Source of the DNA: Elusimicrobia bacterium RIFCSPLOWO2_02_FULL_39_32
GTDB taxonomy: Bacteria; Elusimicrobiota; Elusimicrobia; 2-02-FULL-39-32
Direction: 5' to 3'
Length of the DNA stretch: 64,000 bases
Assembly: GCA_001800135.1 (NCBI GenBank)
Contig: MGUU01000022.1
Coordinates: forward strand, 39,004-103,003
Positions 3,102-64,000 of the stretch are shown here, one piece after another (the stretch's first letter is position 1; each line of letters starts with the position of its first letter). The notes beneath the pieces were generated by a model that was not told where the DNA came from, did not search any database, and saw only the letters and a list, made by a program, of their open reading frames with translations. The translations under genes and the position numbers were made by a program.

Positions 3102-3169
3102 ACAAAAGAAGCCTTCATTTACCGTTTAAAGTTTCCTTAAACCAAGTGAATGATTTGGGTTAATGTAAA

Positions 3170-4696: not shown

Positions 4697-5223
4697 TGGA
4701 GACGGGAAAGAGCTTTGCGAAAGCCTTCGAGTTCTAATTTTTTTGCTTTAGACTCAACTTGAGATTTCATTTTTGATTTGTATTGAACCACCTTGTTTTC
4801 AATTCTTTTATCAGAAAGAGCTAAAATTTTGCAAGCTAAAAGAGCTGCGTTTTTAGCCCCATTGATAGCCACTGTAGCCACAGGCACCCCTTCAGGCATC
4901 TGCACGATAGAGAGCAATGAATCTAATCCATTCAATTTAGAAGTTTTAATTGGCACCCCAATCACTGGCAAAGATGTTAAAGCAGCCACCATGCCGGGCA
5001 AATGAGCAGATCCGCCTGCTCCAGCCAATATTACTTTAATCCCTCTTTTTTTAGCTTGGCTTGCGTAACGCGCCATGCGTTTAGGAGTTCTGTGCGCAGA
5101 AACAATTGTAAGTTCATATGGAACTTTAAATGAATCAAAAAGTTCAGCCGCAGATTTCATGATTGGAAGATCAGAATCGCTTCCCATAATAATAGCTGCT
5201 AACGCTTTCTGATTATTTTGCAT
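4693..5223 (-). CDS. purE: N5-carboxyaminoimidazole ribonucleotide mutase
   Basis: [17 protein letters not shown]...SAHRTPKRM...[15 protein letters not shown]. Confidence 0.96.
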
Positions 5224-6385
5224 CAGGCACCAGCGGTAAAACTTTAATGAGCTGCTGCACTTTTCCTGCTTTTTCTAAAGCTTCTTCTACTGTAGGCGCT
5301 AAAATAGTTAGATGGCCAAGTTTTCTTCTTTTCTTTAAATATTTTTTTCCATAAAGGTGCAGTTTCACTCCTGGAATCGCAAGAACATCTTTGATGCCTT
5401 CAATTGTGTAGGGATGCTCTTCTTCTCCTTCTCCAATAATATTTAGCATCACGCACGGGCTTAAAAGCAAAGGAGGCACTAAAGGAAGATTTAAAACAGA
5501 CCTTAAATGAAGTTCAAATTGGGAATGGTCGCATGCTTCAATTGTGTAATGACCAGAATTGTGTGGCCTGGGAGCGATCTCATTAATTAAGAGTTCCCCA
5601 TTTGCGCAAAGGAAGAGTTCCACGCCAAAAACTCCCACCCCATTTAAAGATTCAATCGCGCGTTTTGCGATTCTTTGCGCCTGCTCAATGATGGCTTTTG
5701 AAATTTGCGCAGGCACAATCGTCATTTTTAGCATATGTTCCTCATGAATATTTTCTACCACAGGATAAGCTTGGATTTCGCCTTCAAAATTACGAGCCAC
5801 CATTACGGAAAGCTCTTTAATGAATGGAACAAACTTTTCCAACATATATTTTCTTTGAGAAAGGTTTCCATTCAAAGAATGGGTAAACAATAAACTAGAG
5901 AGGTCGTCAATCTGTTTTAAAGTAAAGTTCCCTCTGCCATCATAAGAATCTTTTCTTAATTTTAAAATCGCGGGAAAATGAATTTGAGAAATACATTCAG
6001 CCAAATGTTCTCTGGAAAGGATTTCAAAAAATTCAGGAACAGGGATATCATAAGTTTTAAGATATTGTTTCTGTAAAAATTTATCTTGAATGATCCGTAA
6101 AGTTTCAGGAGCAGGAAAAATTTTAAACCCCTCTATCTCTAAAGTTTTTAAAATTTCAGTATCTCCTAACTCAATTTCATAAGTAAGAATATCGCAGCTT
6201 TCCGCAAGCTCACGAAGCGCGTTTTGATTTTTAAAATCAGCCACAATTTGTTTAGTGGCAACAGCGGCTGCCGGACAATGAGGCGTAGGATCTAAGACCA
6301 CAATCTCTATCGCCATCCGCCTTGCTTCTTGGGCAATCATTTTACCGATTTGCCCTCCTCCGATAATACCAACAATAGTATTCAT
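5213..6385 (-). CDS. purK: N5-carboxyaminoimidazole ribonucleotide synthase
   Basis: [19 protein letters not shown]...; ATP-grasp [18 protein letters not shown]; overlaps purE. Confidence 0.95.
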
Positions 6386-6453
6386 TGTTTATTTGCGAAC
6401 CAAAAATCCAAAAACCAAAATTTCAAATTCAAATAATCTTCTCATCATAAATT

Positions 6454-7647
6454 TTATTTACCCATGCCTAACTTCTGCGCTTTTTGATAAACTTTTCCTT
6501 CGCTCTTTATATCCGGAGCAATAATAATTTCAACCAATTGCATCTCCTTGATGTTGCGCGCTCCTAAAGAACCCATGGCCACTTTTAAAGCTCCAACTAA
6601 ATTTTGCGTTCCATCATCCACATTTGCAGGGCCTAAAAGAATTTCTCTTAACAACGCGGTGGTTCCCACCCAAACGCGCGTTCCTCTGGGAAGATAACGA
6701 TCCGGCATGGCCATGCCCCAATGATACCCCTTCCCAGGAGACTCTGTTGCTTTTGCAAGGCCTGAACCAATCATCACAGCGTCTGCGCCGGAAGCGATCG
6801 CTTTACAAATATCCCCGCTTGTGACCATGCCGCCATCCGTTATAATAGAAATATATTTTCCGGTTTTTTTAAAATAAAAATCTCGGGCTTGAGCGCAATC
6901 CACCGTAGAAGTCACTTGCGGAACTCCCATGCCTAAAACACCTCTTGTGGTGCAGGCAGCTCCTGGACCAATCCCTACCAAAATCCCAGAGGCTCCGGTT
7001 TCCATTAAAGCCAAAGCCTGATCGTAGGTAACGCAATTGCCGATTACAACAGCCATTTTCTTTTTTAAATTTTTACAAATTCTTGCAAAATCCACAGAAG
7101 CGTATTTGGAAGATTCATGGCGCACGCTGGTAACTGTGGATTGGATAAAAAATAGATCCGCTCCAGCCTCCAAAGCAATTTCCGCAAAGCGTTCCGCTCG
7201 TTTTGGTATTGCGGATAGTGCGACTGGAACCCCTGCTTTTTTAATTTGCTGAATTCGAAGTTTAAGCAGCTCTTCTTTGATAGGCTCTCTATAAATCTGC
7301 TGCAAAAGGTTCGTGACTTCATCTGGTTTTGCAGTTACAATTTTCTTTAAGATTTCCTGAGGTTTTTCATATCTGGTTTGAATCCCTTCAGAATTTAAAA
7401 CCGCTAACCCGCCGCAATGCCCCATCTCAATAGCGAAATTAACATCTACCACTCCATCCATGGCGCTGGCAATAATTGGAATCTTAAGATTAACATCTCC
7501 AATTTTACTGACCACATCCACTTCTTCCGGATCAATGGTAACTAACCCAGGCACAAGCGCCACCTCATCAAAACCATAAGCTCTTCTTGCTTCCCGATCT
7601 TTTCCTATAAAAAATGCCATAGTTTCTCCTCTAAATGTGTGGCGCAA
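6454..7647 (-). CDS. IMP dehydrogenase-related protein, GuaB3 type (no CBS domains); likely start at internal Met 7620
   Basis: GKDREARRAYGFDEVALVPGLVTIDPEEVD...IIASAMDGVVD...GGLAVLNSEGIQTRYE; GIGPGAACTTR. Confidence 0.85.
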   Translation of the reverse strand: MRHTFRGETMAFFIGKDREARRAYGFDEVALVPGLVTIDPEEVDVVSKIGDVNLKIPIIASAMDGVVDVNFAIEMGHCGGLAVLNSEGIQTRYEKPQEILKKIVTAKPDEVTNLLQQIYREPIKEELLKLRIQQIKKAGVPVALSAIPKRAERFAEIALEAGADLFFIQSTVTSVRHESSKYASVDFARICKNLKKKMAVVIGNCVTYDQALALMETGASGILVGIGPGAACTTRGVLGMGVPQVTSTVDCAQARDFYFKKTGKYISIITDGGMVTSGDICKAIASGADAVMIGSGLAKATESPGKGYHWGMAMPDRYLPRGTRVWVGTTALLREILLGPANVDDGTQNLVGALKVAMGSLGARNIKEMQLVEIIIAPDIKSEGKVYQKAQKLGMGK

Positions 7648-7692
7648 ACCCTTCTAATTCGTTGTTTGCGCCAGCCTGATTTTTCTTAAAAT

Positions 7693-8256
7693 CTATTTAA
7701 CCAATTTTGGAAGAGTAATCTCTTTTTGCTTTTGATACTTGCCTTTTTTGTCAGCGTAAGAAACTTCACAAATCTCATCGCTTTCTAAAAAAAGAACCTG
7801 AGCAATTCCCTCATTGGCATAAATTTTTGCTGGCAGCGGTGTAGTATTAGAAATTTCTAAAGTGACAAAACCTTCCCATTCCGGCTCAAAAGGGGTTACA
7901 TTCACAATGATTCCACAACGCGCATACGTGGATTTTCCCAAACAAATTGTAATCACGTTGCGTGGAATTCTAAAATATTCTACTGTTCTCGCCAAGGCAA
8001 AAGAATTAGGTGGAATCGTAATATAAGTGTCTGTGGCAATATCTATAAAAGCTTTAGGATCAAATGCTTTTGGATCCACAGTTGCGCCATACGCGTTGGT
8101 AAATACTTTAAAGTCCCTGCCCACTCGAATGTCATATCCATAAGAAGAAACACCGTATGAAATCACTCCTTGATTGACCTGACCTTCTTGAAAAGGTTCG
8201 ATCATGCCAAACTCTTTTGCCATTTTTTTAATCCACCCATCTGATTTAACAGACAT
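7693..8256 (-). CDS. dcd: dCTP deaminase (ORF extends to 8307; likely start MSVKSDGW at 8256)
   Basis: [14 protein letters not shown]...[14 protein letters not shown]...[23 protein letters not shown]. Confidence 0.93.
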
Positions 8257-8273
8257 AATTTTTCTCCTTTGAT

Positions 8274-11200
8274 TTAACCGCAGCGGGAATAACCGCAATC
8301 TTTGCAAACTGCGCAGCCATTTTCAAAAATTAAATTGACTCCGCAATCCGGACATACTCCAACAAAATCTCTTGTAGGACCATACTCTCTTTTAGGAGGA
8401 TCTTGAACCATAGGCGCAGGATTTTTAATTTCCGGAGCTGCCTGAGCTTTGTCCGCAAGAGAGGTTTTGGCAAAATCTAATTTTAGCTGCTTAACAAATT
8501 TTATAGGTTCTGGCAATGTGGAAGCCCGCGGATAAGCTTTTTGCGGATTAAATGAATCTCCATACAAATAGCGTCCTAAAGCAAGAGCGATTCCTTGAGC
8601 CACAGTAGTCACGCAAACCACAGTATCATCTACAGAACGGTCAAACGCCACTTCTCTGGTTCTTACCCTCCACATCTGTTCAATCACTTCTCTGGGATCT
8701 ATGGCTGCTCTTAAAAGCAGGCTGGCCAGCCTGCCAGTGACCTCTGCTTCCGCATCCAAAGATTTTACAAAAACTTCGCAAAGCCCCAGCTCGTCTTCAT
8801 TGATGGTCACATAAATTGGACCGCGCGGGGTCTCAATTCTTTCTGTACGGCCTTCAGTGACTTTAGGCCGTTTTCTAGAGGGCAAAGGATGAGCGGAACC
8901 TGCTCCTCCTGCCTTGGCAAGATTTTCTTTTTCCTTTCTTTTTACTTCCTCATCCGTAATCAAAACCCCTTCTCTGGAACCTTCCCGATAAACTGTAATG
9001 CCTTTGCATCCCATTTTCCAAGCAAGGAAATAGATTTTTTCCACATCCTCTTCAGTAGAATCCCGGTGAATGTTCACTGTGGATGAAATGGAATGGTCAA
9101 TATGCTTTTGAATGGTTGCCTGCATATAGACTCTTTTTTCTGGAGCGATATGGTGAGCTGTAACAAAAAATTCCGGCAGTTGAGAATCGTCTTTTAAATT
9201 AAATCTTTTCATGTAGCGGTCCACCAAAGGATGATAGACTTTAAAAAATTCCTGACTTAAAGACTCTGAACGCCTCACATAAGAAAGATCAAAGATAGGT
9301 TCAACCCCGCTGGTCGTGCCTGCCAAAGCTGCTCCAGAACCCACTGGGGGCACTGTAAGCACAGCCACATTTCTTAATCCATGAGCCTCCACTCTTTTTA
9401 ACACATTTGAATCAAGCCTTTGAATAAATGGGGACTTTAAATGCTGCTCTGAATCATAAAGTTTAAAAACCCCTTTTTCTAGTCCAATGTTCACGCTCTC
9501 ATCATAGGCGAAATTTTTGATCCGCTCAAAAAGATGATCCACAAAACTAATCGCTTGATCCGTATCGTACTTTAACCGCATTTGGCAAAGCATGTCGCCT
9601 AAGCCAGTAAAACCAAGACCAATTCTGCGAGAAGAAACTGAAGCTTCAGTTTGAGCTTTTAAAGGATGTTTATCTGCGTTGTAATCTAAAACATTGTCTA
9701 AAAATCTTACGCCATATCGAGCTGCTTTTTCTAAAGCGGTCCAATTCACTCTGGAATTTTCCGTAAATTCTTCTTCCACAAACTTAGAAAGATTAATATT
9801 GCCTAAGCAGCAATCCCCATACCCCTCCAATGGAATTTCTCCGCAATTGCCAGTGACAATCCCATTAAAAATTAAGGAATGGTTATAAAACTGAGTTGCA
9901 TCATAAACCGCTTCCTCGCCCGCATAAGTAATAGAGCTCACTTTTGCTAAAAATTTCTCTTTTTTTCTGGAGAAACTAAACTTCCTTTCCTTAAACCATT
10001 GTTGAAACTTCTCACTTTTTTCTTTTTGCAAGAATCCAATCTTTTGCATAAAATAAACTACATTCTCGCCATGCAGCCTTAAACTATAGCACTGACTAGA
10101 AGTGTATTCCCGTTTTTCTCCTGCTCGGGTAGTGTAGAAAAATTTTGACGGCATATTTCTCTTTTCTTGATAAATCCGACAAAAAATTCCAAAATTAGAA
10201 AGTAAAACCTGAATCTCTTTTAAAAAACTCAGATTAATGGAAGTAAGCGAAAGTGCGATCTCATCTTTTTTCCTCTTGCGAGTCCAGACACTGCCATCCG
10301 CGCTAAAGAGGCCCTGCAAATAGCCGCGCACGCAATCTTTAGTTCCTTGCCATACTAACTCAGGCACTTTTAATTTGGATTCCTTAGAAAAAGAATAGAG
10401 TTCTTTAAAAATTCTGGCTAATCTAACCGACCCAATTCTTATTTTTTTAAGTTCTGGCATTTCTTGAATTGCAAGGGAACTATTTCTTGAAATCCATTCC
10501 GGATCCCTATCTAAACGAGCATAATCTGCGCTGATCACACTTTCAGCCGCCCTATGCACTTCCTCAATAACTTCCTGGTTCTCATTCCACAATTCAATCA
10601 GAGCTTTTTTATCGCCAAAAGTGCCGTCTCCAGCGATCAGTCCGGAAACCAAACCAAGCTCGTAATAGCCAGTTTGCCCAAACTGTCCTTCGCCAGATTG
10701 AATTAAAAGAATTTCTCCTTCCTTAATCTCTTTTAATTTTTTCTTTTCTATATTAAACTTTGTAATGTTTCTTTTTTTCCCATCTTCATAAGAAACATGA
10801 TAAGGTTTAGCCACATAAAACTCATGCCAATCTGTTGCTTTAATTTCATAACCAGCATCTGTTTCCAGTTTATACACTTTTGCTTTATCCGAAGTTTTAA
10901 AGATAGGGGTGCTGGTTGTTGTAGCTGCGCCATAAAGGTCAGATTTACCATCTGTCCTTTTATCTATAGTTACTGTCAATGGTTTCGCTTCCGCGTAAAG
11001 CTCTTTGACTTGAACCAATCCATGTTCAGTATGAATTCTTGTATCGCCAGTTACACAAGGATTAGTGGAAATCACCTCCATGCCATTATATTCTGAGGTA
11101 GATTCTTTTTTAATGGAATCCCAAAAAAGCACTCCAGGCTCTGCCCAGTCTCTTGCGCCTTTAACCAGCTCTTTCCACACTTCCCGAGCCCGCACTTTGC

Positions 11201-12038
11201 GAGTCACCCTGACTTTTTCATTTTCAAAATAAAGCTCAAAATCTTCATCTTTTTCAACCGCTTTCATTAAAGCATCTGATACCCTTACGGAAATATTGGC
11301 AAAACGCACGGTTCTTAAATCTCTTTTCACCCGCACAAAGTCCAGAATGTCTGGATGAGAATCGCGCGTGGTAATCATCAAAGCGCCTCTTCTGCCAGAT
11401 TGGCCAATGGTGCCTGTAGTCAAAGAAAATAGATCCATAAAAGAAACTGAACCCGTGCTGGTCAATGCCGCGTTATTGACCCGAGCGCCTTTTGGACGCA
11501 AAATAGAAATGTCAGTGCCCACTCCACCGCCATAGGAATAGGTTCTAGCCGCTTCTTTCATCCAATCAAAAATAGCTTCCAACCGATCCTCTTTTACAGG
11601 GATCACATAACAATTTAATAAGGTAACGTTTCTTGGGTTGCCAGCTCCAAAAAGAATCCTTCCTCCTGGAATAAATCTAAAATCTGATAAAAGCCAATAA
11701 AATTTTTCTTGCCATTCATTTCTTAACGCTTCATTCTCTTCTACGCTGGCCAGCTCCCTAGCCACTCTTTGCCACATCTCCACCGGTGTTTTTTCTACGA
11801 CCCGGCCGCTTCTATCGCGGAGAGCATATTTGTCTAAAAAGACTCTGCATCTTAAAATATCGTCATTAAAAAATTCTTTTGTTTCTTGAGTTAACGGAGC
11901 TGGAGTTAAAGCCACTTCTTCTTCTAATGGGAGATTGGGAACTGATGGGCTCACTTCCTCTGAACTGTTACTAGAATTTACCCTGCCTTCTAAGGGTGGA
12001 TTCATAAGCGTTTTTTCCTCCTTGAAATTAATTGGCAA
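8274..12038 (-). CDS. nrdJ: Vitamin B12-dependent (class II) ribonucleoside-diphosphate reductase containing an intein
   Basis: Extein [39 protein letters not shown]-terminal CPDCG...[10 protein letters not shown] zinc-ribbon-like tail; intein inside. Confidence 0.95.
9846..11057 (-). mobile_element. Intein with LAGLIDADG (dodecapeptide) homing endonuclease domain, 404 aa, in NrdJ
   Basis: Starts [20 protein letters not shown] (block A), block [11 protein letters not shown], endonuclease motifs [12 protein letters not shown] and [12 protein letters not shown], ends FNGIVTGN followed by Cys (+1). Cys1 codon at 11055-11057, terminal Asn codon at 9846-9848. Confidence 0.95.
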
Positions 12039-12540
12039 TCTTTAATTTTGAAATTTTTGATGGCACAGCTTTGGAAAGAGCGTTTTTCTCCTTTCTATTT
12101 TTTAATTTATCAATCTCTTCTAAAAAAGAATTGACGTCGGAAAAATTTCTATAAACAGAAGCAAATCTTACATAAGCGACCTGATCAATCGCATGCAATT
12201 TTTCCATCACCTTTTCTCCAATCACTTTTGAAGAAATTTCCATCACATAATCCTTTAACTCATACTCCACTTCCGCCACAATCAGGTCTATCGTGTCCAT
12301 AGAGATCGGCCTTTTTTCACAAGCGCGCAAAATCCCTTGGCGCAATTTAGCTCTGTCATAAGGTTCTCGGCGCTGATCTGATTTTACAACCATTAAAGGC
12401 ATCTCTTCTAGCCGCTCGTAAGTGGTAAAACGTTTGTGACAATTCTTGCAGATCCTTCTGCGCCGAATTACGCTTGCGGATTCAAGAGGTCTTGAATCTA
12501 AAACTGAATCGTTAGAATGGCGACAAAAAGGGCATCTCAT
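12028..12540 (-). CDS. nrdR: Transcriptional repressor NrdR (Zn-ribbon/ATP-cone)
   Basis: MRCPFCRHSNDSVLDSRPLESASVIRRRRICKNCHKRFTTYER. Confidence 0.97.
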   Translation of the reverse strand: MRCPFCRHSNDSVLDSRPLESASVIRRRRICKNCHKRFTTYERLEEMPLMVVKSDQRREPYDRAKLRQGILRACEKRPISMDTIDLIVAEVEYELKDYVMEISSKVIGEKVMEKLHAIDQVAYVRFASVYRNFSDVNSFLEEIDKLKNRKEKNALSKAVPSKISKLKIAN

Positions 12541-12701
12541 ATTAATATATTGAACTCTCTAATAGCATGACATCATCTATAGGCGCTGCCTCTTTGCTTT
12601 TGGCGCTTTAGCAGCTATAAGATCAAACTTTTTTAAGACAACAATTTGCAACTTTAATAAACATGAAGAATGTTAGACTGGAATGAAAAAGAACTTTTTC
12701 A

Positions 12702-12717
12702 CTACCACAGATTGTGT
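12702..12717 (-). promoter_or_regulatory. Candidate second, weaker NrdR box
   Basis: ACACAATCTGTGGTAG, start-to-start distance 30 bp from the first candidate box. Confidence 0.4.
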
Positions 12718-12724
12718 TAATTGG

Positions 12725-12753
12725 ATTCTAACATCTATATGTAGAGTTGTCAA
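12725..12753 (-). promoter_or_regulatory. Sigma70-type promoter for nrdR-nrdJ: TTGACA-N17-TAGAAT
   Basis: Minus strand TTGACA (12748-12753), 17-nt spacer, TAGAAT (12725-12730). Confidence 0.65.
12732..12747 (-). promoter_or_regulatory. Candidate NrdR box in the promoter spacer
   Basis: ACTCTACATATAGATG, about 11/16 to the known NrdR box ACACWATATMTWGTGT. Confidence 0.5.
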
Positions 12754-12791
12754 GGTTTGATTTTCCCTCTTAAAAATAGAAAAAATGATCT

Positions 12792-12820
12792 TTGTTTTCC
12801 TGCAAAGAAATAGGTATAAT
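12792..12820 (+). promoter_or_regulatory. Promoter of the ThyX-like gene: TTGTTT-N17-TATAAT
   Basis: TATAAT at 12815-12820, TTGTTT at 12792-12797; CDS starts at 12854. Confidence 0.5.
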
Positions 12821-12853
12821 AAACTCTCGCCTGAAAAATAAAATAAATTTCCA

Positions 12854-14455
12854 ATGAAAATAAATCTAGAAAATTTAAGTGAATGTGGAAAACTTTCTAA
12901 CCAATTTTTTCCTGAACCCAGGGTTCTTTTGATCAATGCTTTTCAAGTTCCTTATGATAATTCGGTGGCTACTGCCAGAACCTGCTACTCCTCTAAGGTT
13001 ATTTACGCGGAAGATGTATCAAAAGATGAAAGCGCAAAAGCCCAACGCGATACCATTGCAAAAAGCACCTACCTCGCTGGCCATCACACCACTTTACAGC
13101 ACGCCACATTTCAATTTGTACTTGAACGGGTAAGCCGTCAGATGATATGGAGTTTTCTCCACAGCCATCCATTTTATAACAGCGAACAGGTGAGCCAGCG
13201 CTATGTGGCTGTAGCTCCTGTAAATTTTGCTAAACCTCCCATGGATGAAGCTGAAAAAGAAGAATATTTAAAGACCATCCAAATCAGCATGGCCGCGTAT
13301 GAAAAACTGCAAGTTCTGCTTAAACCCACAGTAGAAAAAGAATATCTAAAAATATTTTCAAATAGGAACTTACTAGAAAAAAAATGGCAGTCTGCGATTA
13401 AAAAAAGATGCCAGGAAATTGCGCGTTATGTTTTGCCATTAGCCACGCACGCGCATCTTTATCACACCATTTCTGCTTTGACTCTTCTGCGCTATTTAAG
13501 ACTCTGCCAAATTTTTGACGCGCCTTTAGAACAAAAAATAGTTGTTTTTAAAATGTGTGAAGAGGTGAAAAAATGGGATCCTGAATTTTTTAAAAACGCG
13601 GAAGATCCCATGCCTTTAGAAAAAACTCCGGAATACCAATATTTTCTTGACCAAAATGAACAAATCAATCCTCATGTGGAAAATTTTAAAAAAGAATTTG
13701 ATGAGTCTTTAGAGTCTTATTCCTCTAAACTCACAGATTACAAAGTGAATGCTGAAAAAAGCATGGCTAATGCGGTCAGGGCGATCCTTGGTCAAACATC
13801 CAAAAATTTAGAAGATTCTAAAGCGATAGATTTGGCGCTTAACCCAGAGAAAAACCATTATCTCGCGGAAACTTTAAATTTGAACCACCATGCAAAATTG
13901 AGCCGTGCCCTGATCCATCCCCATTTTACTTTTAGAAAAAAAATATCCCATACCGCGGATTCCCAAGACCAAAGACACCGCACTGTGCCCGGTTCAAGGC
14001 CAATTCTCTCCAAACATTTCTCTTCCACCCCAGACTATATTATTCCACAATTGATTGAAATCGCCCCAGAGGCTCACGAATTTTACACACAAACTATTGG
14101 AGAAATTTGGAAACAGATAAATAAGCTTTTAAACCAAAACCTTAACATGGAGTATGCGCTTTATCTATTGCCCAACGCATTCCCTATTCGCTTTGAAGAG
14201 TCTGGAAGTTTAATTGATTTTCACCATAAATGGACTCATCGGCTCTGTTACACTGCCCAAGAAGAGATTTGGAAAAACTGTTTAGAAGAAACCACGCAGG
14301 TTCAAGAGCTTTTTCCAAATATTGGAAAATATCTTTTTGCGCCCTGCGCTTTAAGGAAATATGCTAGTCGGAAACCTTTCTGCCCGGAAGGGGATAGGTT
14401 CTGCGGCGTGCCTGTCTGGACGCTCAATCTTAATCAATATCAAAGGATCCTATAA
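12854..14455 (+). CDS. ThyX-like (FAD-dependent thymidylate synthase family) protein with two ThyX-like regions
   Basis: N-half TARTCYSSK...GHHTTLQHATFQFVLERVSRQ...SEQVSQRYV; C-half LNHHAKLSRALIHPHF...DSQDQRHRTVPGSRP. Confidence 0.75.
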   Translation: MKINLENLSECGKLSNQFFPEPRVLLINAFQVPYDNSVATARTCYSSKVIYAEDVSKDESAKAQRDTIAKSTYLAGHHTTLQHATFQFVLERVSRQMIWSFLHSHPFYNSEQVSQRYVAVAPVNFAKPPMDEAEKEEYLKTIQISMAAYEKLQVLLKPTVEKEYLKIFSNRNLLEKKWQSAIKKRCQEIARYVLPLATHAHLYHTISALTLLRYLRLCQIFDAPLEQKIVVFKMCEEVKKWDPEFFKNAEDPMPLEKTPEYQYFLDQNEQINPHVENFKKEFDESLESYSSKLTDYKVNAEKSMANAVRAILGQTSKNLEDSKAIDLALNPEKNHYLAETLNLNHHAKLSRALIHPHFTFRKKISHTADSQDQRHRTVPGSRPILSKHFSSTPDYIIPQLIEIAPEAHEFYTQTIGEIWKQINKLLNQNLNMEYALYLLPNAFPIRFEESGSLIDFHHKWTHRLCYTAQEEIWKNCLEETTQVQELFPNIGKYLFAPCALRKYASRKPFCPEGDRFCGVPVWTLNLNQYQRIL

Positions 14456-14456
14456 T

Positions 14457-15752
14457 ATGCCAAGCATTGTTGTAGTTGGAACTCAGTGGGGAGATGAAGG
14501 CAAAGGAAAAATTGTCCACCTCCTAGGAAAAGAAGCGGACATGATTGTCCGTTACCAAGGAGGGCCAAACGCAGGGCACACGGTTGTTTTTGACGATAAA
14601 CTTTTTGTGCTGCATCTGATTCCAGCAGGGATTCTAATCCCTAAAAAAATCTGCATTATTGCCAATGGAGTGGTGGTGGATCCTCTTGCGCTCCATGAAG
14701 AAGTAAAACTGCTTGAAGAAAGAAAAATTAAAGTTGAAGGAAGGCTGTTTATTTCTGAACTGGCGCACCTTATTTTACCTTATCACAAAATTTTGGATGT
14801 CGCTAAAGAAGAATCAAAAAAAGGGGAAACTAAAATTGGAACCACGCGTAAAGGCATTGGCCCTGCCTACGCAGATAAAGTAGAGCGGGTTGGGATCCGT
14901 TTAGCCGATTATTTAGAAGAAGATACTTTTAAAGAACTTCTGGAACAAAATTTAAAATTAAAAAAAGAATATTTAGGGAGTCCCTCTCAGATTGAAGAGC
15001 TTAAAAATCAAATTCTTACCCAAGCGAGCTCTTTAAGACCTTTTTTAAAAAAATTCGCGTGCGATAGTTCTTTAGATCTTAATTTGGCTTTAAAAAAAGG
15101 GAAGAAAATAATTTTTGAAAGCGCTCAAGGCACAATGCTGGATATTGATTTTGGAACCTACCCTTATGTAACCTCCTCTAACCCTATTGCTGGAGCCGTA
15201 GGTTCAGATTGCGGCATTGGTCCAAACAAAATTGGCTCTGTGTTAGGCATTGTAAAAGCCTATACCACCAGAGTTGGGGAAGGACCTTTTCCTACAGAAT
15301 TAGAAGATGAAGTAGGAAAAAAATTAAGAGAGGTGGGAAAAGAATTTGGCGCTACCACAGGCAGGCCCAGGCGATGCGGCTGGTTTGACGCTTTAGTGGT
15401 TCAAAGATCTGTAAGCGTCAATGGCATAGAAAAATTAGCATTAACCAAACTGGATGTGCTTCAAGGAATGTACCCTTTAAAAGTTTGCATTGCCTATGAA
15501 CACCATGGCAGAATCCTAAAACATTTTCCCAATTCAAGAAAAGTATTGCAGGAATCTAAGCCTATTTACAAAACTTTAAATGGTTTTGGCGAGATCGGCA
15601 AATCTGTTCGGCGTTTTAAAGATCTGCCTCTTCCAGCGCAAAAATATGTTCGATTTTTAGAAAAGATTTCCGGAGCAAAAATCTCTTTTGTCTCTTTAGG
15701 TCGCAGCCGCGATGAAACGATCCGAATCTCCAAAACCTCTCTTTGGAACTAA
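14457..15752 (+). CDS. purA: Adenylosuccinate synthetase (ORF opens at 14361; start MPSIVVVG at 14457)
   Basis: VVVGTQWGDEGKGKIVHLL...RYQGGPNAGHTVV. Confidence 0.96.
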   Translation: MPSIVVVGTQWGDEGKGKIVHLLGKEADMIVRYQGGPNAGHTVVFDDKLFVLHLIPAGILIPKKICIIANGVVVDPLALHEEVKLLEERKIKVEGRLFISELAHLILPYHKILDVAKEESKKGETKIGTTRKGIGPAYADKVERVGIRLADYLEEDTFKELLEQNLKLKKEYLGSPSQIEELKNQILTQASSLRPFLKKFACDSSLDLNLALKKGKKIIFESAQGTMLDIDFGTYPYVTSSNPIAGAVGSDCGIGPNKIGSVLGIVKAYTTRVGEGPFPTELEDEVGKKLREVGKEFGATTGRPRRCGWFDALVVQRSVSVNGIEKLALTKLDVLQGMYPLKVCIAYEHHGRILKHFPNSRKVLQESKPIYKTLNGFGEIGKSVRRFKDLPLPAQKYVRFLEKISGAKISFVSLGRSRDETIRISKTSLWN

Positions 15753-15786
15753 GAATCCTAGTGTGGTGTAACCACAAAAAAACTCC

Positions 15787-17127
15787 TTACACCTTCCATT
15801 CCCGCACACCGTTTCTTCCGGACTCTTTTGCCTGATACAGGGCATGGTCTGCTCGTTGGATCAGCTCTTCTGCTAAAGGAGCCTCTGGCAAATAGTGCGC
15901 TACCCCAATACTGACTGTAATTTTTATGGTCACGCCTTCAGAAATTTCAATCGCGCTATTTTCAATAGCAGATCGCAAATGTTCCGCGGTTGCAAGCACC
16001 ACCTCTTGCGGAGCAAGGCCAATTAAAAGAGCAAACTCTTCACCTCCATAACGGCAAATATTAACTCCATGGTGAACATTACTCTTAAGGATTTCCGCTA
16101 TTTTTTTTAAAACCATGTCTCCGGCAAGATGACCATACCGATCGTTGACTAATTTAAAATGATCTAAATCCAACATCAGCAAAGAAAAAGAGGTGCCGTA
16201 TCGTTTAGTAAAACTAATCTCTTCGCTTAAACGTTCCAGAAAAACCCTTCTTAAATAAAGGTTCGTTAAGCCATCCCTTCTGCTCCGCTCCACAATTTTT
16301 CTATAAAGATGAATTTTATGAAAGCCTAGTCCTAACAATTGCACGGCAAAAGAAACTTTATCTAAAAAATCGTCACTGACAGAACCCTCTAAAAGAAAAA
16401 ACAATAAACCATGGGCTCTGCCTTGCCACCGCACTGGGGAACCTACCAAATAAAGGTCTTCTGTTTTTTTGCCATCCAGATATACTTCTGTTTTCAGAAT
16501 GCGGTCTAAGGGGGTAAAAATACGGTCTTCTGAACGATTCAAATTTAAAGGAAGAAGCTGTAAAATCTTGTTCCAACCCTCCTGATCCAAAAACCCCTTG
16601 GCAAAAAATGATTTCCAAATTTTTTCATCTTTAGATACGTCTAACTCTGGCTCAAGATCTGGGTTTGTGGCAAAACCATAACCCAATAAATTTTTTTCAA
16701 AGGAAAAAATAGAGTTTAAATCCTCTAAAATAGGAACTTCTTCCATATAACTCACAAGGCTCTTTGCAAAAAGGTAACGTTTAGAGATTTGTTCAGCTTC
16801 TTCCTGCAGTTTTTTTCTCTGAGATTCTAATTTTTCACATTCCAACTGCTTCTTGGATAGTTCAGCCTGTAAATATAGCTGCCTTTGCAAAGAATTGCTC
16901 ACTGCCTCTTGCACTTCTCTTTTCAAAGGATACTGAAAAAGTCCGGCAGCTATAAAAAGAACCGCATTTAAAAATCCGGCAACCATAAAATTGTTTCTAA
17001 AGCCCAAAAGAATAGAAAATGCTGAAAGAAAAATTGCCAAAAGTATGCCTCTCTTCCCCTTACCTTTAAAAGGGAGAACTAAAGGCAAAATAGAAAGAAG
17101 CGGAAAAAGAGCAAAACTGTTCATCAT
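15787..17127 (-). CDS. Membrane-anchored diguanylate cyclase (GGDEF; RYGGEEF)
   Basis: N-terminal hydrophobic helices, coiled coil, GGDEF domain RDGLTNLYLRRVF...CRYGGEEFALL. Confidence 0.88.
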   Translation of the reverse strand: MMNSFALFPLLSILPLVLPFKGKGKRGILLAIFLSAFSILLGFRNNFMVAGFLNAVLFIAAGLFQYPLKREVQEAVSNSLQRQLYLQAELSKKQLECEKLESQRKKLQEEAEQISKRYLFAKSLVSYMEEVPILEDLNSIFSFEKNLLGYGFATNPDLEPELDVSKDEKIWKSFFAKGFLDQEGWNKILQLLPLNLNRSEDRIFTPLDRILKTEVYLDGKKTEDLYLVGSPVRWQGRAHGLLFFLLEGSVSDDFLDKVSFAVQLLGLGFHKIHLYRKIVERSRRDGLTNLYLRRVFLERLSEEISFTKRYGTSFSLLMLDLDHFKLVNDRYGHLAGDMVLKKIAEILKSNVHHGVNICRYGGEEFALLIGLAPQEVVLATAEHLRSAIENSAIEISEGVTIKITVSIGVAHYLPEAPLAEELIQRADHALYQAKESGRNGVREWKV

Positions 17128-18473
17128 TGAAGGTTCACCTTATTTCTTCCTAAATCTTTAGCTTTATAAAGAGCGCGATCTGCTGTTTCTATAAGAATAT
17201 TTGAATGATCCATGTCAGGGGTTCTAGAGGATACGCCTCCGGAGATGGTGACATAAATTTTTTCTTTTCCCATTGGAGTGGCCATTACTTTTAAACGAAT
17301 GCGGTCGGCAATTAGATAAGCGTTCTCTTTACTGGTAAAAGGCATTAACACAGCAATTTCTTCTCCTCCATAACGGCTGCAAAAATCCGTGGTTCGAGTT
17401 TGGGTTACGATAATTTCCGCCACATTATGCAGAATTTTATCCCCTACTAAATGTCCCCAAGCGTCATTGACCCTTTTAAAATGATCAATATCAAAAATAA
17501 TTAAAGAAAGATCGGATTTATTGATTTTAGATCTAAAAAATTCTTCTTCTAAACGTTCGTCAAAACGGTAACGAACAAAAAGGCCGGTTAAAGAGTCTCG
17601 CACAGCCAAAGATTCTATCTTCTCATAAAAAAGAGCGTTGGTGGTCACCAGAGAAACAATGTTGGAAATGTCTGAAAAAAATCTTAAATCTTCCTCTTTC
17701 CATCTTTTTAGCTTAGGAGACTCTAAATTTAAAGTTCCCATAATTAAATTTTCTCGTTCTAAAGGAGCTGCAATAAAAGAACCTTTTTTCCCTGAATGAG
17801 AAGAGGTCAGCCGAGGGTCTTGACTCATATCTCCCACTAAAAAAGGAATGCGATGTTTTACAATCCACTCCCCTATCTCATCCCCTTTCGCAGGTGAACT
17901 TGGCAAAGGAAAAAGATTTAAAGAAATTTCTAAATCTGTTTCTCGGCTAAAAAACCTACGAATAGAATCTTTTGTTTGTCTTTTTATTTCTTCTATCTGC
18001 AAATAAGAAGAGAGGTCGTCTGTGAATGAACGCAATTGAGTATACCGGTAAATCTTTTCTTTTAACCCATGACAAAGTTCTTCCAGCTCCTTTCTTTTTT
18101 GTTCCAGGTCTTGAACCCCTATTTCCAAATTTTCAATTTTTTCTTGCACCTTTTGAACTTCTAAATCCTTAGCTTCTATCATTTTCTGGGCTTTCCAAAA
18201 AATATACCAGAGCCAACCCATTTGCAAAAGAAAAATAAACGGGCCCCCTGTGGCAAGACTCCCAATAGAAAATATTAAACCAACGGTCCCCACTAAAGTT
18301 GCAAATATAAACATGCCGGCAGCGGTCATGGGAATAGAAAAATAGGAAAGGAAAAGAATAGGAACTCCAAAAAAAGGGAAATAAAATTGAGGCGTCATTT
18401 CCCCGGTTAACATAAGGTAAGGAATGACTAGAGCAATGACATAAGGAACAGATTGGATAAATACGCTTAACAT
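17124..18473 (-). CDS. Membrane-anchored GAF-GGDEF protein (SRYGGEEI)
   Basis: N-terminal TM helices, GAF-like region, RDSLTGLFVRYRF...SRYGGEEIAVLM; ATGA overlap with next GGDEF gene. Confidence 0.86.
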   Translation of the reverse strand: MLSVFIQSVPYVIALVIPYLMLTGEMTPQFYFPFFGVPILFLSYFSIPMTAAGMFIFATLVGTVGLIFSIGSLATGGPFIFLLQMGWLWYIFWKAQKMIEAKDLEVQKVQEKIENLEIGVQDLEQKRKELEELCHGLKEKIYRYTQLRSFTDDLSSYLQIEEIKRQTKDSIRRFFSRETDLEISLNLFPLPSSPAKGDEIGEWIVKHRIPFLVGDMSQDPRLTSSHSGKKGSFIAAPLERENLIMGTLNLESPKLKRWKEEDLRFFSDISNIVSLVTTNALFYEKIESLAVRDSLTGLFVRYRFDERLEEEFFRSKINKSDLSLIIFDIDHFKRVNDAWGHLVGDKILHNVAEIIVTQTRTTDFCSRYGGEEIAVLMPFTSKENAYLIADRIRLKVMATPMGKEKIYVTISGGVSSRTPDMDHSNILIETADRALYKAKDLGRNKVNLQ

Positions 18474-58344: not shown

Positions 58345-59943
58345 ATGGAAAAAAATGTGCTTTGGGCAACGATCTTATCAGCGGTTTTTTTAATGGGATG
58401 GTACTATTTTTTTATGCCCGCAGCTCAAGCTCCAGTAAGCATACCAGGCACAACGTCCCAAACTAATGTTTCGCAAGAGGATGGGAAAAATCTTGAGCCA
58501 GCCTTTACTAAAACCACACAACTTTTAGATGCAAAGCAAAGCATCCCTATTCAACCCACAGAACGGATTTTGGAAAATTCTAAACTTAAAATAGCGCTTG
58601 ATTCTCGCGGGGCAAGCGTAAAGCATTGGTGGATAAAAGAGGATGAAAGGATTACTTTAAATGGAAAAGAGCTTGTGGATTTGGTTAATTCAGGGCTTTC
58701 AAGCTCTGGAGCTGACTCATTTCCTTTAACAACATTCCCGGAACTTCAATTTAAAGAGGTTCGTTATGCTAAATTAGGGAGCGGTCAGATTAGTTCTGTT
58801 TGGAAAGCGGAGCTTGATTCTGGACTTGAAATTGAAAAAAGTTACTTCTTAGGCGATGAGAGGGGATCAGAAGAAGAGTCCTATTTTTCAAAGATGGTGC
58901 TTGTCTTTAGAAATTTATCTAAAAACCCAATTGTTTTAGAAAATTTTAAACTAGGATGGCAAGGCGGGTTAGGGACCACTAAGAGTGAACTTAAAGAAAA
59001 TCAGAGCGTGACCAGACTGCTTGCCTACCCATCTCCAACAAAAGAAGTCATTAAATTTAAATCTGGGAAAGAAAACGCGGATTTTACCTGGGCAGGGATA
59101 GACAACCGCTACTATTTGTTTGCTTTTCTTCCTAAACAGGGTCAATTAGACCACATACTAACAGAAAAATCAAAAACAAATTCTGGTGAAGTCTTTTTGG
59201 CCACAGATCGTCTTGAAATTAGTTCAGGAGAATCTAAAACCTATGCTTTTAAATTATATGGAGGGCCTAAAGGATATACACACTTAAAAGAATTAGGACT
59301 TGGTTTAGAACATGCAGTTGACTTTGGTTATTTTGGATTTTTAGGTAAATGGGCCTTAAAAGTTTTAAATGCGCTTAAAAAAACAACAGGAAATTATGGC
59401 TGGGCAATTATCTTATTAACTTGCGCTTTACAACTGCTTTTATTTCCTTTAAGCATGAAAAGTTATCGCTCTACAGCAGCCATGAAAAAATTACAGCCTA
59501 AGATTCAGGAACTGCAAAAACGATATAAAGAGGATGCAAAAAGGCTGAATCAGGAGATGTTGAGCCTTTATAAAGAATCTAAAACCAATCCTTTTGGAGG
59601 CTGTTTACCCATGATTTTACAAATCCCTGTTTTCTGGGCTTTTTTTACCATGCTGCGCAACTCTTATGAGCTAAGAGGAACCCCGTGGATTTTTTGGATT
59701 AAGGATTTGTCTCAGCACGATCCTTATTACATTTTGCCTGTGGTCATGGGCGGTGGCATGTTCTTACAACAAAAACTTTCTGGTTCCGTAGGAGACCCTA
59801 CTCAAGCTAAAGTCATGATGTTTATGCCTATTATTTTTACAGCCATGTTCCTTAATTTCCCAAGCGGTTTGGTCCTTTATTGGCTGACTAATAGCATTCT
59901 TTCCATCTCTATCCAATACTGGTGCACAAAGAAGTACGCGTAA
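58345..59943 (+). CDS. yidC: Membrane protein insertase YidC
   Basis: NYGWAIILLTCALQLLLFPLSMKSYRSTAAMKKLQPKIQELQKRYKED...FGGCLPMILQIPVFWAFF. Confidence 0.97.
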   Translation: MEKNVLWATILSAVFLMGWYYFFMPAAQAPVSIPGTTSQTNVSQEDGKNLEPAFTKTTQLLDAKQSIPIQPTERILENSKLKIALDSRGASVKHWWIKEDERITLNGKELVDLVNSGLSSSGADSFPLTTFPELQFKEVRYAKLGSGQISSVWKAELDSGLEIEKSYFLGDERGSEEESYFSKMVLVFRNLSKNPIVLENFKLGWQGGLGTTKSELKENQSVTRLLAYPSPTKEVIKFKSGKENADFTWAGIDNRYYLFAFLPKQGQLDHILTEKSKTNSGEVFLATDRLEISSGESKTYAFKLYGGPKGYTHLKELGLGLEHAVDFGYFGFLGKWALKVLNALKKTTGNYGWAIILLTCALQLLLFPLSMKSYRSTAAMKKLQPKIQELQKRYKEDAKRLNQEMLSLYKESKTNPFGGCLPMILQIPVFWAFFTMLRNSYELRGTPWIFWIKDLSQHDPYYILPVVMGGGMFLQQKLSGSVGDPTQAKVMMFMPIIFTAMFLNFPSGLVLYWLTNSILSISIQYWCTKKYA

Positions 59944-60005: not shown

Positions 60006-63000
60006 TCATGCTTGGATTTCAAACGTTTCAGAAGTACTGAAGTTTTCTAAATCTTTTGTTTGTGGATTCTTTTCTTGGATCGTGAGTTCGTTTTTCATCC
60101 AGTTCCATTCAACCCCATTCTCTTCTGTATATCCCATGTTTTCAATCAAACTCTTTAGTTCTCTTGCAAATGTTCCGCTCACTGCGATCTTTTCTCCTAG
60201 ATTTAAGAGATCTTTCGCAAACTTCCTCCATAGCTCTGGAAACGCGGTCACCACCAATGCGATCTTATACCCCTTGCTTTTCTCTAGCGCCTGCTTTTGG
60301 GTTTGAACTGAAAAAAGTACCAGATATTCTGGGATGCCATACTCTGTGAGCAATGTCTTTACTATCCCTTGAATCTTGTCTGATTTCATAATGAATCCAA
60401 GACGAACCCTTGGATTTTTTTCACCCATGAGCCTGTCTCTTGCTCCCTCCAAAGCTTTTCTTAAATCCATCTCTGCTTCAATTTTGTTTTCTACCGTTTC
60501 CTTCGTTTCCTTTACTAACCCATTTAAATCAACCAAAAAAATCGGATATTCTTCTTTGACTTTGCTTCTAAAAAGGGCTTTGTGAATGAGGGAGTAGGTG
60601 AGGTTGCTTAAAGGGTGTTCCTCCCTCGCTTTTCTAACCATAAGGAATTCCTTGAGCTCCTTTTCCGATTCTTTGTAAAGTTTAAGTTCTTTAAAATAGT
60701 TGGCAAGGATGTTCACTGCAAAGTGGGTGATGTATGATGCAAGGATGGAAGTAGGGATCACCAAAAGAGGGGATGCCGCAAATGTATGAGGCAGAATGTA
60801 GGGAAGAATATGTGGAACTAAATAAGGCAAAGAGAGATTAACTACGCTGATCAGCCCAGCTAGACCAATATTGATGGGAGGGGCTCGTATCCCTTTAGAA
60901 TCAGGAATAAAATGTGTGGCTATAAAGGTGTAAGACCATGTAACGAGATAAGAAGCGGTAAGAGAAAGGGTAAAATCACCCGTTGATAGATACATAGGCA
61001 ACCCAACCAGTAAACTCACGAAATAGGCGAACGTATTCTCGAATGGCGATGAAAACCACCGGCCATAGTTGCGAGAAGAAAGTAAGGGAATCTTTTTATG
61101 TGTGAGAAGATGAATTTGTTTTGACAGATTCATCGCCCACTCTTTGACCACAGGAATAATTCCACCAATACTGTTAGCTTCATCTTCTATCTCTCCAGAT
61201 TCTGGAAAGAATGCCCTTACCTCATACTTATAGTATTCTTTAAGACTCTTAAACAAAGCTTTTGCTCTTTCATCATCTAGCGTATCTCTCTCTTTGGGCT
61301 CCTCTGTAAAGGTTCTGGAATCCCAAATAATGGCAAGATTATCCTTGGCTCTGGATAAGCCCACATTCAACCGTCTTAAATCTTTTACAAACCCAATTTG
61401 TCCTTGCGGGTTGCTTCTTACAAAATCAAATATCACAGCGCTATTTTCTCCTCCTTGATAACTGTCAATCGTTGTGATTGTTGGCAAATCGCCGTTGGTA
61501 AGAGTGGGATATTCCTTTTGGATCAATGAGCGTATCAGCTCTACTTGAGGAAGATAAGGGGTAATAACAGTGATTTCTTTTAGAGGAATGCCTTTGATCT
61601 TGTTGTGATAAAGAATTAGAAACATCGCTTCATCTGCTGAGGGTGGATTTCTAAAAGAGCTCCCGACTCTTTCTTCATAATATTCATTGATCCCTTCATT
61701 GATATCTATCACCTTTAAACTGAGAGTCTGCGCATCAAAGTCTTCCCACCCTCTTCGGTGGACATCCCCTTCATAAAACAGATGGGACACTAGCCCGGAA
61801 ATTAAAGGATGGGAGCGATAGTTGGTAGAAAGCATGACCCGATCCCCATAGCTCCGTTCTAACAACCAATCGAACACGCTTGTGTTAAAAGCTTTGATCT
61901 CATCCTCTGATACCCCATTATCTTTTAATGCCCTCTCTTCTTCATTATTCAATCCAAAAGGAGGAAGCTGTTTTGTGTCTCCTACAAATATTACTTTGCC
62001 GTCATCTTTAAGATAACTTAAAGGGACCAGAGCCGCAGAAAGCGTTTCCCGGCTCGCTTCATCCATAATCACAAGATCGAACTTTCCTGTTCGTTGAATG
62101 ATGTTCCTAAAGAATGGATTGGTTTCAATTCCTATGTTGGTGCCGGCAAATACCATTCCAGTTCCGTTGATATTTCTTTTTTGAAACTCATCTAAAACCT
62201 CTTTTCTTAGTCCAGTTTCCTTATTCCCCACCCAAACCTTTTCCACTCCATACTCTAATCTCTTTGGATTTCCGCCAAATCGTAGAGCAGGTAGATCGTC
62301 CATTACCTTAGCTAATGCATTATCCACGGCTTGGTTCATCTGGGATACCACTAATACATTCTTCCCTAATTTCACATATTGTCGGATGATCTCTTCAATA
62401 ACTGTGGTCTTTCCTGTACCCGCAGGACCTTCAATGTAGAATGCCTCGGTGGGATTCAATGCTAGATTCACTGCTTCTTCCTGGGATTGGTCTCCAATGG
62501 ATTCCAAATTAGATATTTTTCTATAAGGGATCCCTTTATTAAAGAATTCATCAACAGACAGTCCAGTGTTTGGAGAGTTCCTATCTTGAGAGGTTAGTGG
62601 AATCAAACCAAATAAACGGTCTAAGACTCTAGAACCAGTTGAATGACCTTGACTCCTTTCTAAATGATCAATCACTCGTTGTAGATGTTCTATCTGTATC
62701 TTCGTGGGGAGATCGCTTGAGTCAGTGAATTCTTCATCACTATCAACTCTAGCAGTCCCTTGAGAGACTTGTGGAATGGGATGAGCCAATATTGCCTGCA
62801 AAACAGAAAGGCGAGTTTTAAGGTTGCGGATTAAACTCTGGCGCTCTGGAATCTTTAGAACTTCCATATCTTGAGAATTATACCGCTTGAGATGTTTTTC
62901 TCTATCTAGAGTTCCTCTTTTTTCTTCCGCCTCCCTTTTTCTCTTGATCCAATCTTCTACATTGGGAGTGTTTAAAGATTGGATAATAAGACTCCTCTCA

Positions 63001-64000
63001 TCTCCAAGGCGATAGACCCTTTGGAGTTGTTCAATATAACTCCATGGCAGAAGGTGTGTGGATAGAAGTAACTCCACTTCTGTTTCCGACAACCCTTTAC
63101 TTTGGTAGAGTTGGATTTCCCTTGCTAACCGATCAGCCAGTTCTGGAACATTGAGACGATTTAAATCTAATTGTCCAATCCCTTGCACTTCTGACTTAAG
63201 AAGAACCCCATGCTCTTGCAAGAGATGGAGAGACTGATCCCTTAAACGAACCATGGTTTCTGCAAGGATTTGCGCATATCGAGAGGGAAATCTATCTTTC
63301 AATTCATTTTGGAGCTTTTTGCTAAGTTGGTTTCTAAATTTAATTTCTAAATCGGTTAAAGCGCGTGTTATCCTTCCCCAACCAAAGAATCCAACGCTTT
63401 TTATGAAACCTTCTCTTTTGAGCTCAAGTTCAGGATGGTCAAAGACTTTGAGGAGCACTGTGATATAACTCCCGCCAAAGTAGGGGGCATTTCTTCCATC
63501 CATAGCCCCACTCAGCCCCCAAACATTGAAATGTCCTGACGTGATTTTATAAATCTCTTCTCTGAGAGAGTTAATCTCATCAGGAGATAACTTCTCAACC
63601 CTTTGATATTTTTCTATCAGCTCCGGCTTCTCTTTGGCTAAAACATACTTTACAGATGCGATTCCTAGGTTCTTATCTCCTTCTGGATCACCTCCCTCCC
63701 CTTTCCATTTTAATTCAAACCCCAATGGATTTAATCCCAACTTATGGAACACTTTATCCAGCGCTGCGATATGACTTCCGCCCAAGTAGGGGGCATTTCT
63801 TCCATCCATAGCCCTACTCAGCCCCCAAACATAGAAATGTCCCTGCGTGATTTTATATATCTCTTCTCTGAGGGAATCAATTTGTTCTGGAGATAACTCT
63901 TCAACCCTTTGATATTTTTCTATCAGCTCCGGCTTCTCTTTGGCTAAAACATATCTTACAGATTTGATCCCAAGTTTTTCATCTTCTTCTGGATCGCCTC
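60006..64000 (-). CDS. Giant multidomain protein: N-terminal 102-aa tandem repeats, UPF1/DNA2-like SF1 helicase, membrane segment, unknown C-terminal domain; N-terminus cut by window edge
   Basis: Frame stays open from 63809 to 64000. Helicase motifs GPAGTGKTTVIEEII, VIMDEAS, GDTKQLPP, NYRSHPL, TIDSYQGGENSAVI, RRLNVGLSRAKDNLAII. Confidence 0.9.
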   Translation of the reverse strand, partial: GDPEEDEKLGIKSVRYVLAKEKPELIEKYQRVEELSPEQIDSLREEIYKITQGHFYVWGLSRAMDGRNAPYLGGSHIAALDKVFHKLGLNPLGFELKWKGEGGDPEGDKNLGIASVKYVLAKEKPELIEKYQRVEKLSPDEINSLREEIYKITSGHFNVWGLSGAMDGRNAPYFGGSYITVLLKVFDHPELELKREGFIKSVGFFGWGRITRALTDLEIKFRNQLSKKLQNELKDRFPSRYAQILAETMVRLRDQSLHLLQEHGVLLKSEVQGIGQLDLNRLNVPELADRLAREIQLYQSKGLSETEVELLLSTHLLPWSYIEQLQRVYRLGDERSLIIQSLNTPNVEDWIKRKREAEEKRGTLDREKHLKRYNSQDMEVLKIPERQSLIRNLKTRLSVLQAILAHPIPQVSQGTARVDSDEEFTDSSDLPTKIQIEHLQRVIDHLERSQGHSTGSRVLDRLFGLIPLTSQDRNSPNTGLSVDEFFNKGIPYRKISNLESIGDQSQEEAVNLALNPTEAFYIEGPAGTGKTTVIEEIIRQYVKLGKNVLVVSQMNQAVDNALAKVMDDLPALRFGGNPKRLEYGVEKVWVGNKETGLRKEVLDEFQKRNINGTGMVFAGTNIGIETNPFFRNIIQRTGKFDLVIMDEASRETLSAALVPLSYLKDDGKVIFVGDTKQLPPFGLNNEEERALKDNGVSEDEIKAFNTSVFDWLLERSYGDRVMLSTNYRSHPLISGLVSHLFYEGDVHRRGWEDFDAQTLSLKVIDINEGINEYYEERVGSSFRNPPSADEAMFLILYHNKIKGIPLKEITVITPYLPQVELIRSLIQKEYPTLTNGDLPTITTIDSYQGGENSAVIFDFVRSNPQGQIGFVKDLRRLNVGLSRAKDNLAIIWDSRTFTEEPKERDTLDDERAKALFKSLKEYYKYEVRAFFPESGEIEDEANSIGGIIPVVKEWAMNLSKQIHLLTHKKIPLLSSRNYGRWFSSPFENTFAYFVSLLVGLPMYLSTGDFTLSLTASYLVTWSYTFIATHFIPDSKGIRAPPINIGLAGLISVVNLSLPYLVPHILPYILPHTFAASPLLVIPTSILASYITHFAVNILANYFKELKLYKESEKELKEFLMVRKAREEHPLSNLTYSLIHKALFRSKVKEEYPIFLVDLNGLVKETKETVENKIEAEMDLRKALEGARDRLMGEKNPRVRLGFIMKSDKIQGIVKTLLTEYGIPEYLVLFSVQTQKQALEKSKGYKIALVVTAFPELWRKFAKDLLNLGEKIAVSGTFARELKSLIENMGYTEENGVEWNWMKNELTIQEKNPQTKDLENFSTSETFEIQA
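63470..64000 (-). repeat. 306-bp (102-aa) tandem repeat in the helicase-fusion gene, two copies visible (second truncated)
   Basis: MDGRNAPYFGGS (Met codon 63501-63503) and MDGRNAPYLGGS (63807-63809) are 306 bp apart; flanking DNA nearly identical (caaccctttgatatttttctatcagctccggcttctctttggctaaaacata in both). Confidence 0.92.

Follow-up and report, generated by a model that had tools for sequence, protein, structure and literature searches.

Results

The DNA analysed here, referred to as the window, is a 64,000-nucleotide stretch of the genome of Elusimicrobia bacterium RIFCSPLOWO2_02_FULL_39_32 (contig MGUU01000022.1, positions 39,004 to 103,003; G000:C22:39004-103003). At its end, downstream of yidC, a minus-strand frame of 1330 codons runs without a stop (Table 1). 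Since the contig ends at 103003, exactly where the window ends, the N-terminus of the encoded protein is cut off by the assembly. The initial annotation had described this frame as a giant fusion, still open at the window edge, of tandem repeats, a helicase, hydrophobic segments and a C-terminal domain, and the observation as a whole proved to be real, with all of these elements confirmed. Indeed, codon statistics trained on gyrB, dnaN, dnaA and yidC, the housekeeping genes that form the neighbourhood of the ORF, backed the frame in all seven of its blocks of 190 codons. The placement head-to-tail against yidC, on the other hand, had to be corrected, as the two genes are convergent; no intrinsic terminator was found in the 62 bp between them.

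Table 1. Features of the giant ORF and its neighbour (positions in the window; aa, residues of the 1330-codon frame)
Feature	Position	Strand	Basis or remark
C-terminal 1330 codons of giant ORF, 5' end open at contig end	60006..63998	-	ORF listing, codon statistics
Two 102-aa WGL repeats, aa 10-94 and 112-198, all-helical	63405..63971	-	DNA repeat, predicted structure
Accessory segment ahead of helicase, aa 212-480	62561..63365	-	Sequence conservation
SF1B IGHMBP2/UPF1-like helicase core, aa 500-908	61275..62501	-	Domain matches, motifs, trees
Walker A / motif I GPAGTGKT, aa 524-531	62406..62429	-	Alignment
Motif II DEAS, aa 646-649	62052..62063	-	Alignment
CPBP (Rce1-like)-related membrane block, aa 975-1106	60681..61076	-	Predicted structure, profiles, motifs
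C-terminal alpha/beta domain, aa 1151-1307	60078..60548	-	Predicted structure, shared with large ORFs
yidC	58345..59943	+	Convergent neighbour, 62 bp between stop codons; no part of the system

The tandem repeats are present as proposed: the two DNA copies in the window (63442-63694 and 63748-64000) are 86% identical with a spacing of 306 nt, or 102 aa, and the second ends exactly at the contig edge, a repeat copy in this position being a natural stopping place for an assembler. This repeat, which we call WGL, occurs in 71 copies in the genome, filling contigs C12, C15 and C27, which are open from end to end, and lying also at the ends of C11 and C17. As C17 carries a start and the C-termini on C11 and on the window contig C22 differ, the genome must have several paralogous repeat genes; C27, too, reaches a C-terminal module. 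An overlap of 39 nt joins C17 to C12 into one repeat gene of at least about 4500 codons, the product of which starts with a signal-peptide-like segment, as judged by eye and by hydropathy, and continues as stretches of 8-10 repeats with two-helix membrane blocks in alternation. This was the sole join among the contigs, and the end of C22 showed no exact overlap with another contig.

The predicted structure of the WGL repeat is confident (pLDDT 93.9). A Foldseek comparison of the model with PDB structures gave nothing better than E=3.5, and the repeat had no match in Pfam. A likeness to HIV RT, raised by a PDB profile search, was rejected as a chance match (best E=0.11). From sequence and model, WGL is thus classed as a new helical repeat without a solved-fold counterpart. 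It is confined to this family, with copies in this genus (2 of the 290 genomes) and a weaker match in a further genome (G008). The earlier label of lineage specificity therefore holds for the repeats and fails for the helicase-plus-membrane core, which extends to other Elusimicrobiota families and to one Omnitrophota MAG.

At the same locus in a sister species, the contig likewise ends just beyond yidC (L083, G001:C24), and a homologous tail of 30 aa, 73% identical, is frame-disrupted. As no PF13087 helicase was found in the genome of that species (G001) either, the gene there would be dispensable, decaying or unassembled.

The claim of a complete UPF1-like SF1 helicase was borne out. The core matches AAA_12 (E=3.5e-35) and AAA_11 (E=7e-24) and keeps motifs I, Ia, II, III (GDTKQLPP), V and VI in two RecA-like domains. 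Its top solved relative is SMUBP-2/IGHMBP2, a UPF1-like SF1B enzyme (TIGR00376, PF13086/PF13087) with which it shares all helicase motifs. However, the match to the NCBIfam IGHMBP2 family TIGR00376 (E=3e-57), at 194.5 bits, lies below the curated cut-off of 348.9, so that by its sequence the helicase is related to that equivalog family but falls outside it; it differs also in being embedded in a giant membrane protein.

The same helicase was found in giant ORFs of 12444 aa (G022), 5311 aa (G020), 4557 aa (G091, Endomicrobium labiotermitis), at least 4242 aa (G028), 4103 aa (G011) and 2680 aa (G007). The nearest one, at 48% identity, lies in an Omnitrophota MAG within a giant ORF of at least 2486 aa (L092, JAGOLR010000068.1), which suggests either that the gene has moved between phyla or that the sequence was wrongly binned. 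The order of accessory segment and helicase, followed by membrane segments, is repeated in these giant ORFs (2486-12444 aa) of other Elusimicrobiota and the Omnitrophota MAG; for the accessory segment itself, partial conservation extends to the ORFs of Endomicrobium and the Omnitrophota MAG as well as to a paralogue of 4880 aa. The helicase lies mostly near the C-terminus, 243-885 aa from the end, and mid-protein in Endomicrobium. In a phylogenetic tree, the giant-embedded helicases form one clade (support 96/93) apart from the stand-alone helicases of about 640 aa in the phylum. When further SF1 families were added, they again fell on one side of a branch (98/95); the "giant" label (>1500 aa) behind this value excluded the window row, and all nine embedded rows stand together in the tree as drawn. 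The long branches of L171, L090, L164 and L170 call for caution in reading these trees. The distribution of the giant-type helicase is patchy (about 7 of the 341 genomes).

The hydrophobic segments noted earlier are real, in that the predicted structure has four helices at aa ~975-1125, but they are only moderately hydrophobic, since only one 19-residue segment of the block exceeds the Kyte-Doolittle value of 1.6. The block is flanked on either side by Lys/Arg-rich sequence, and homologous blocks in paralogues are more hydrophobic. Among 295 genomes of the phylum, a profile of this membrane module picked up 26 that carry it, almost always within frames 1000-10000 aa long. Its consensus (APxWEExxFR ... 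FxFSH ... HxxxN) is the motif set of CPBP proteases. In the block on C24, EExxxR and FxxxH are kept; G004 has the full set of three. Furthermore, the Pfam CPBP family PF02517 matched above its cut-off inside giant ORFs of 13760 aa (with two such matches; L147, G010:C13), 12118, 6542 and 4880 aa, and hhalign aligned the module family with stand-alone CPBP proteins (P=1.7e-5; Nuo control, P=0.59) with the E, FxxxH and HxxxN in register. On these profiles and motifs, the module, as a family, is related to the CPBP intramembrane proteases.

The copy in the window retains E987 in FENTFAY, the FxxxH motif with H1029 and the HxxxN motif with H1092/N1096, but has lost the second E and the R of EExxxR. 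It had no match to PF02517, and its membrane subclade alone gave no support for CPBP; the assignment thus rests on the wider module family. We accordingly describe the block, from its sequence, as CPBP-related and not as a CPBP member, and claim no protease activity for it, as proteolysis cannot be assumed. CPBP members often have non-proteolytic roles.

The C-terminal domain, which had been called conserved-looking, is predicted to adopt an alpha/beta fold, with many blocks at pLDDT 87-96, and recurs in other giant ORFs within this genus and family. Its best Foldseek match (E=0.015, rmsd 12) is not significant, and the best hit of the module against PDB profiles (E=0.025) is at the level of chance.

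Other large ORFs of the same genome carry different enzyme domains. The 2531-aa, open-ended ORF on C11 (L027, G000:C11:132000-150345, 10752-18344, minus strand) combines WGL repeats, an M48 peptidase, a UbiB/ABC1 kinase, a CPBP-related block with EExxxR and the C-terminal domain. The 2644-aa ORF on C24 (L029, G000:C24:85000-99778, 6846-14777, minus strand) has WD40 propellers and dynein-type AAA_5 domains and ends with the same membrane and alpha/beta module as the window ORF. The 4880-aa ORF on C17 (L025, G000:C17:20001-40000, 2797-17436, minus strand) contains a PLP-dependent enzyme domain, an HATPase, a CPBP match and a segment homologous to the accessory region of the window. SecA_DEAD domains occur in ORFs of 4433 aa (G000:C25:139691-140905) and, in the sister species, 5255 aa (G001:C42:7546-8754). 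In the West-Roberts preprint, SecA-like DEAD domains are said to be present in most giant genes.

Relatives of the window ORF with a complete N-terminus start, by eye and by hydropathy, with a signal-peptide-like segment, directly followed in G022, G020 and G011 by N(F/V)W(D/N)(E/Q)R(R/K), hereafter NFWxERR. Giant or contig-truncated ORFs starting in this way were seen at G022:C44, G020:C27 and G011:C76, and at L208-L217, L220 and L221. A DNA pattern scan for NFWxERR returned many chance matches; those behind a signal-peptide-like segment all start very long frames (4127, 4611 and 4776 codons where closed) or frames that run off the contig or the stretch examined. In the C17 paralogue, no such signature was seen. 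Signal peptide and NFWxERR together, present across several genomes of the class, are a candidate signature for the export of giant proteins. Between signal peptide and helicase, the Endomicrobium relative has one strong predicted transmembrane segment; among the relatives the predicted counts vary, and outside Endomicrobium they are ambiguous.

Discussion

Giant ORFs of more than 20 kb with many transmembrane helices and poorly understood functions are known from Omnitrophota, where attached cells of V. archaeovorus show an enrichment of one giant protein; helicases go unmentioned in that study (Seymour et al., PMC10066038). Giant genes are described as common in Elusimicrobia too (PMC12057145, citing the West-Roberts et al. 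2023 preprint 10.1101/2023.11.21.568195). With these proteins (Velamenicoccus) the present family shares very long ORFs, many transmembrane helices, few annotated domains, a signal peptide or membrane association, and an internal domain of the ATPase/helicase type (SecA_DEAD in this genus). In contrast to them, the window ORF has an SF1B helicase of its own clade, a CPBP-related block and family-specific WGL repeats, and its part in the window has no recognised carbohydrate-active or adhesion domain. Giant size and signal peptide are features seen in the relatives, the window gene being cut at 1330 codons with its N-terminus missing. A literature search, beyond which most subscription papers lay, found nothing on the SF1B subfamily, the CPBP-related block or the NFWxERR signature.

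On the best reading, the window ORF belongs to this known Elusimicrobiota/Omnitrophota giant-protein class, within a new subfamily that carries a helicase and a CPBP-like block. Its structural identity is well supported, and export or membrane anchoring is likely. We consider it probable that the frame encodes the C-terminal portion of a giant, modular, membrane-bound protein, one of several in this bacterium, which may function at the envelope or in cell contact. The signal peptide seen in relatives would take the protein into the Sec pathway, the WGL repeats may form a long helical rod or scaffold, and the CPBP-like hairpins would pin the chain to the membrane; the helicase, from its sequence, would act as a tethered ATP-driven 5'-3' nucleic-acid translocase. 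By analogy with other giant proteins of these phyla, its most likely use would be at the cell envelope or in cell contact, for attachment, attack or nucleic-acid handling at the contact. Since the helicase requires ATP, an extracellular site is disfavoured unless this segment lies on the cytosolic side or is passed into another cell.

The suggestions of a giant surface-associated protein and of membrane-tethered nucleic-acid processing both fit the signal peptides of the relatives and the membrane segments after the helicase, and are to that extent partly supported. The latter could also operate inside the cell, with the chain in the inner membrane and the helicase on the cytosolic face, handling, for example, incoming DNA or membrane-associated RNA. 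The intact motifs and ATP need would suit this, as would the Lys/Arg-rich flanks of the membrane block and the Endomicrobium transmembrane segment, which would put the helicase back in the cytosol; however, the ambiguous segment counts in other relatives, the absence of an operon partner acting in DNA uptake or RNA decay and the patchy occurrence of the gene leave such a role rather unlikely. Such giant chains carry several enzyme domains of the cytosol type, of which the helicase is one. A speculative extension, to which we give a similarly small chance, is an exported giant-protein family across the phylum, in which a signal peptide, in many cases with an NFWxERR mature N-terminus, CPBP-derived spacers and swappable cargo (SF1 helicase, SecA-like DEAD, UbiB kinase, M48 peptidase, dynein-type AAA, PLP enzyme) would make up a new modular contact-dependent system delivering to, or acting at, another cell. 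If the chains were instead polyproteins cut by their CPBP-type and M48-type protease modules, the helicase would act once released. The recurrence of CPBP-related modules throughout the giant ORFs and the M48 domain of one paralogue are consistent with such processing, but the loss of the EExxxR residues in the window block and the frequent non-proteolytic roles of CPBP members make it improbable.

Defence had been offered as another interpretation, and the PADLOC model of MkoA indeed matches aa 602-905 with E=1.6e-71. This best stretch, however, covers only model positions 759-1082 of 1112, the helicase core that the window has in common with Mokosh (MkoA/MkoC); the 1330 aa showed neither a recognisable defence partner domain nor anything else from the MkoA models of 1112 to 1607 aa, the neighbours are housekeeping genes, and the same helicase clade occurs in giant ORFs with signal peptides. 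An anti-phage role related to Mokosh or to other large SF1 helicase systems is therefore very unlikely. A chimera, frameshift or pseudogene, finally, might be suspected from the contig end inside a repeat and the disrupted tail in the sister species. The joining of unrelated genes by an assembly break had been named as what would overturn the observation; yet the module order recurs in independent genomes, the break lies at the repeat end of the frame and not inside it, and the frame is open and coding-like throughout, so that an artefact or decaying gene is largely refuted and scarcely credible.

The giant ORFs of Omnitrophota and Elusimicrobiota have so far been known mostly without recognisable domains. 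The present family offers testable handles on them, namely a monophyletic giant-only helicase subfamily, a CPBP-traceable membrane module that marks giant proteins phylum-wide, a new helical repeat and a shared candidate N-terminal export signature, which together may serve to find and classify giant genes. They also raise the question of why an exported or membrane-anchored chain would carry an ATP-dependent nucleic-acid motor.
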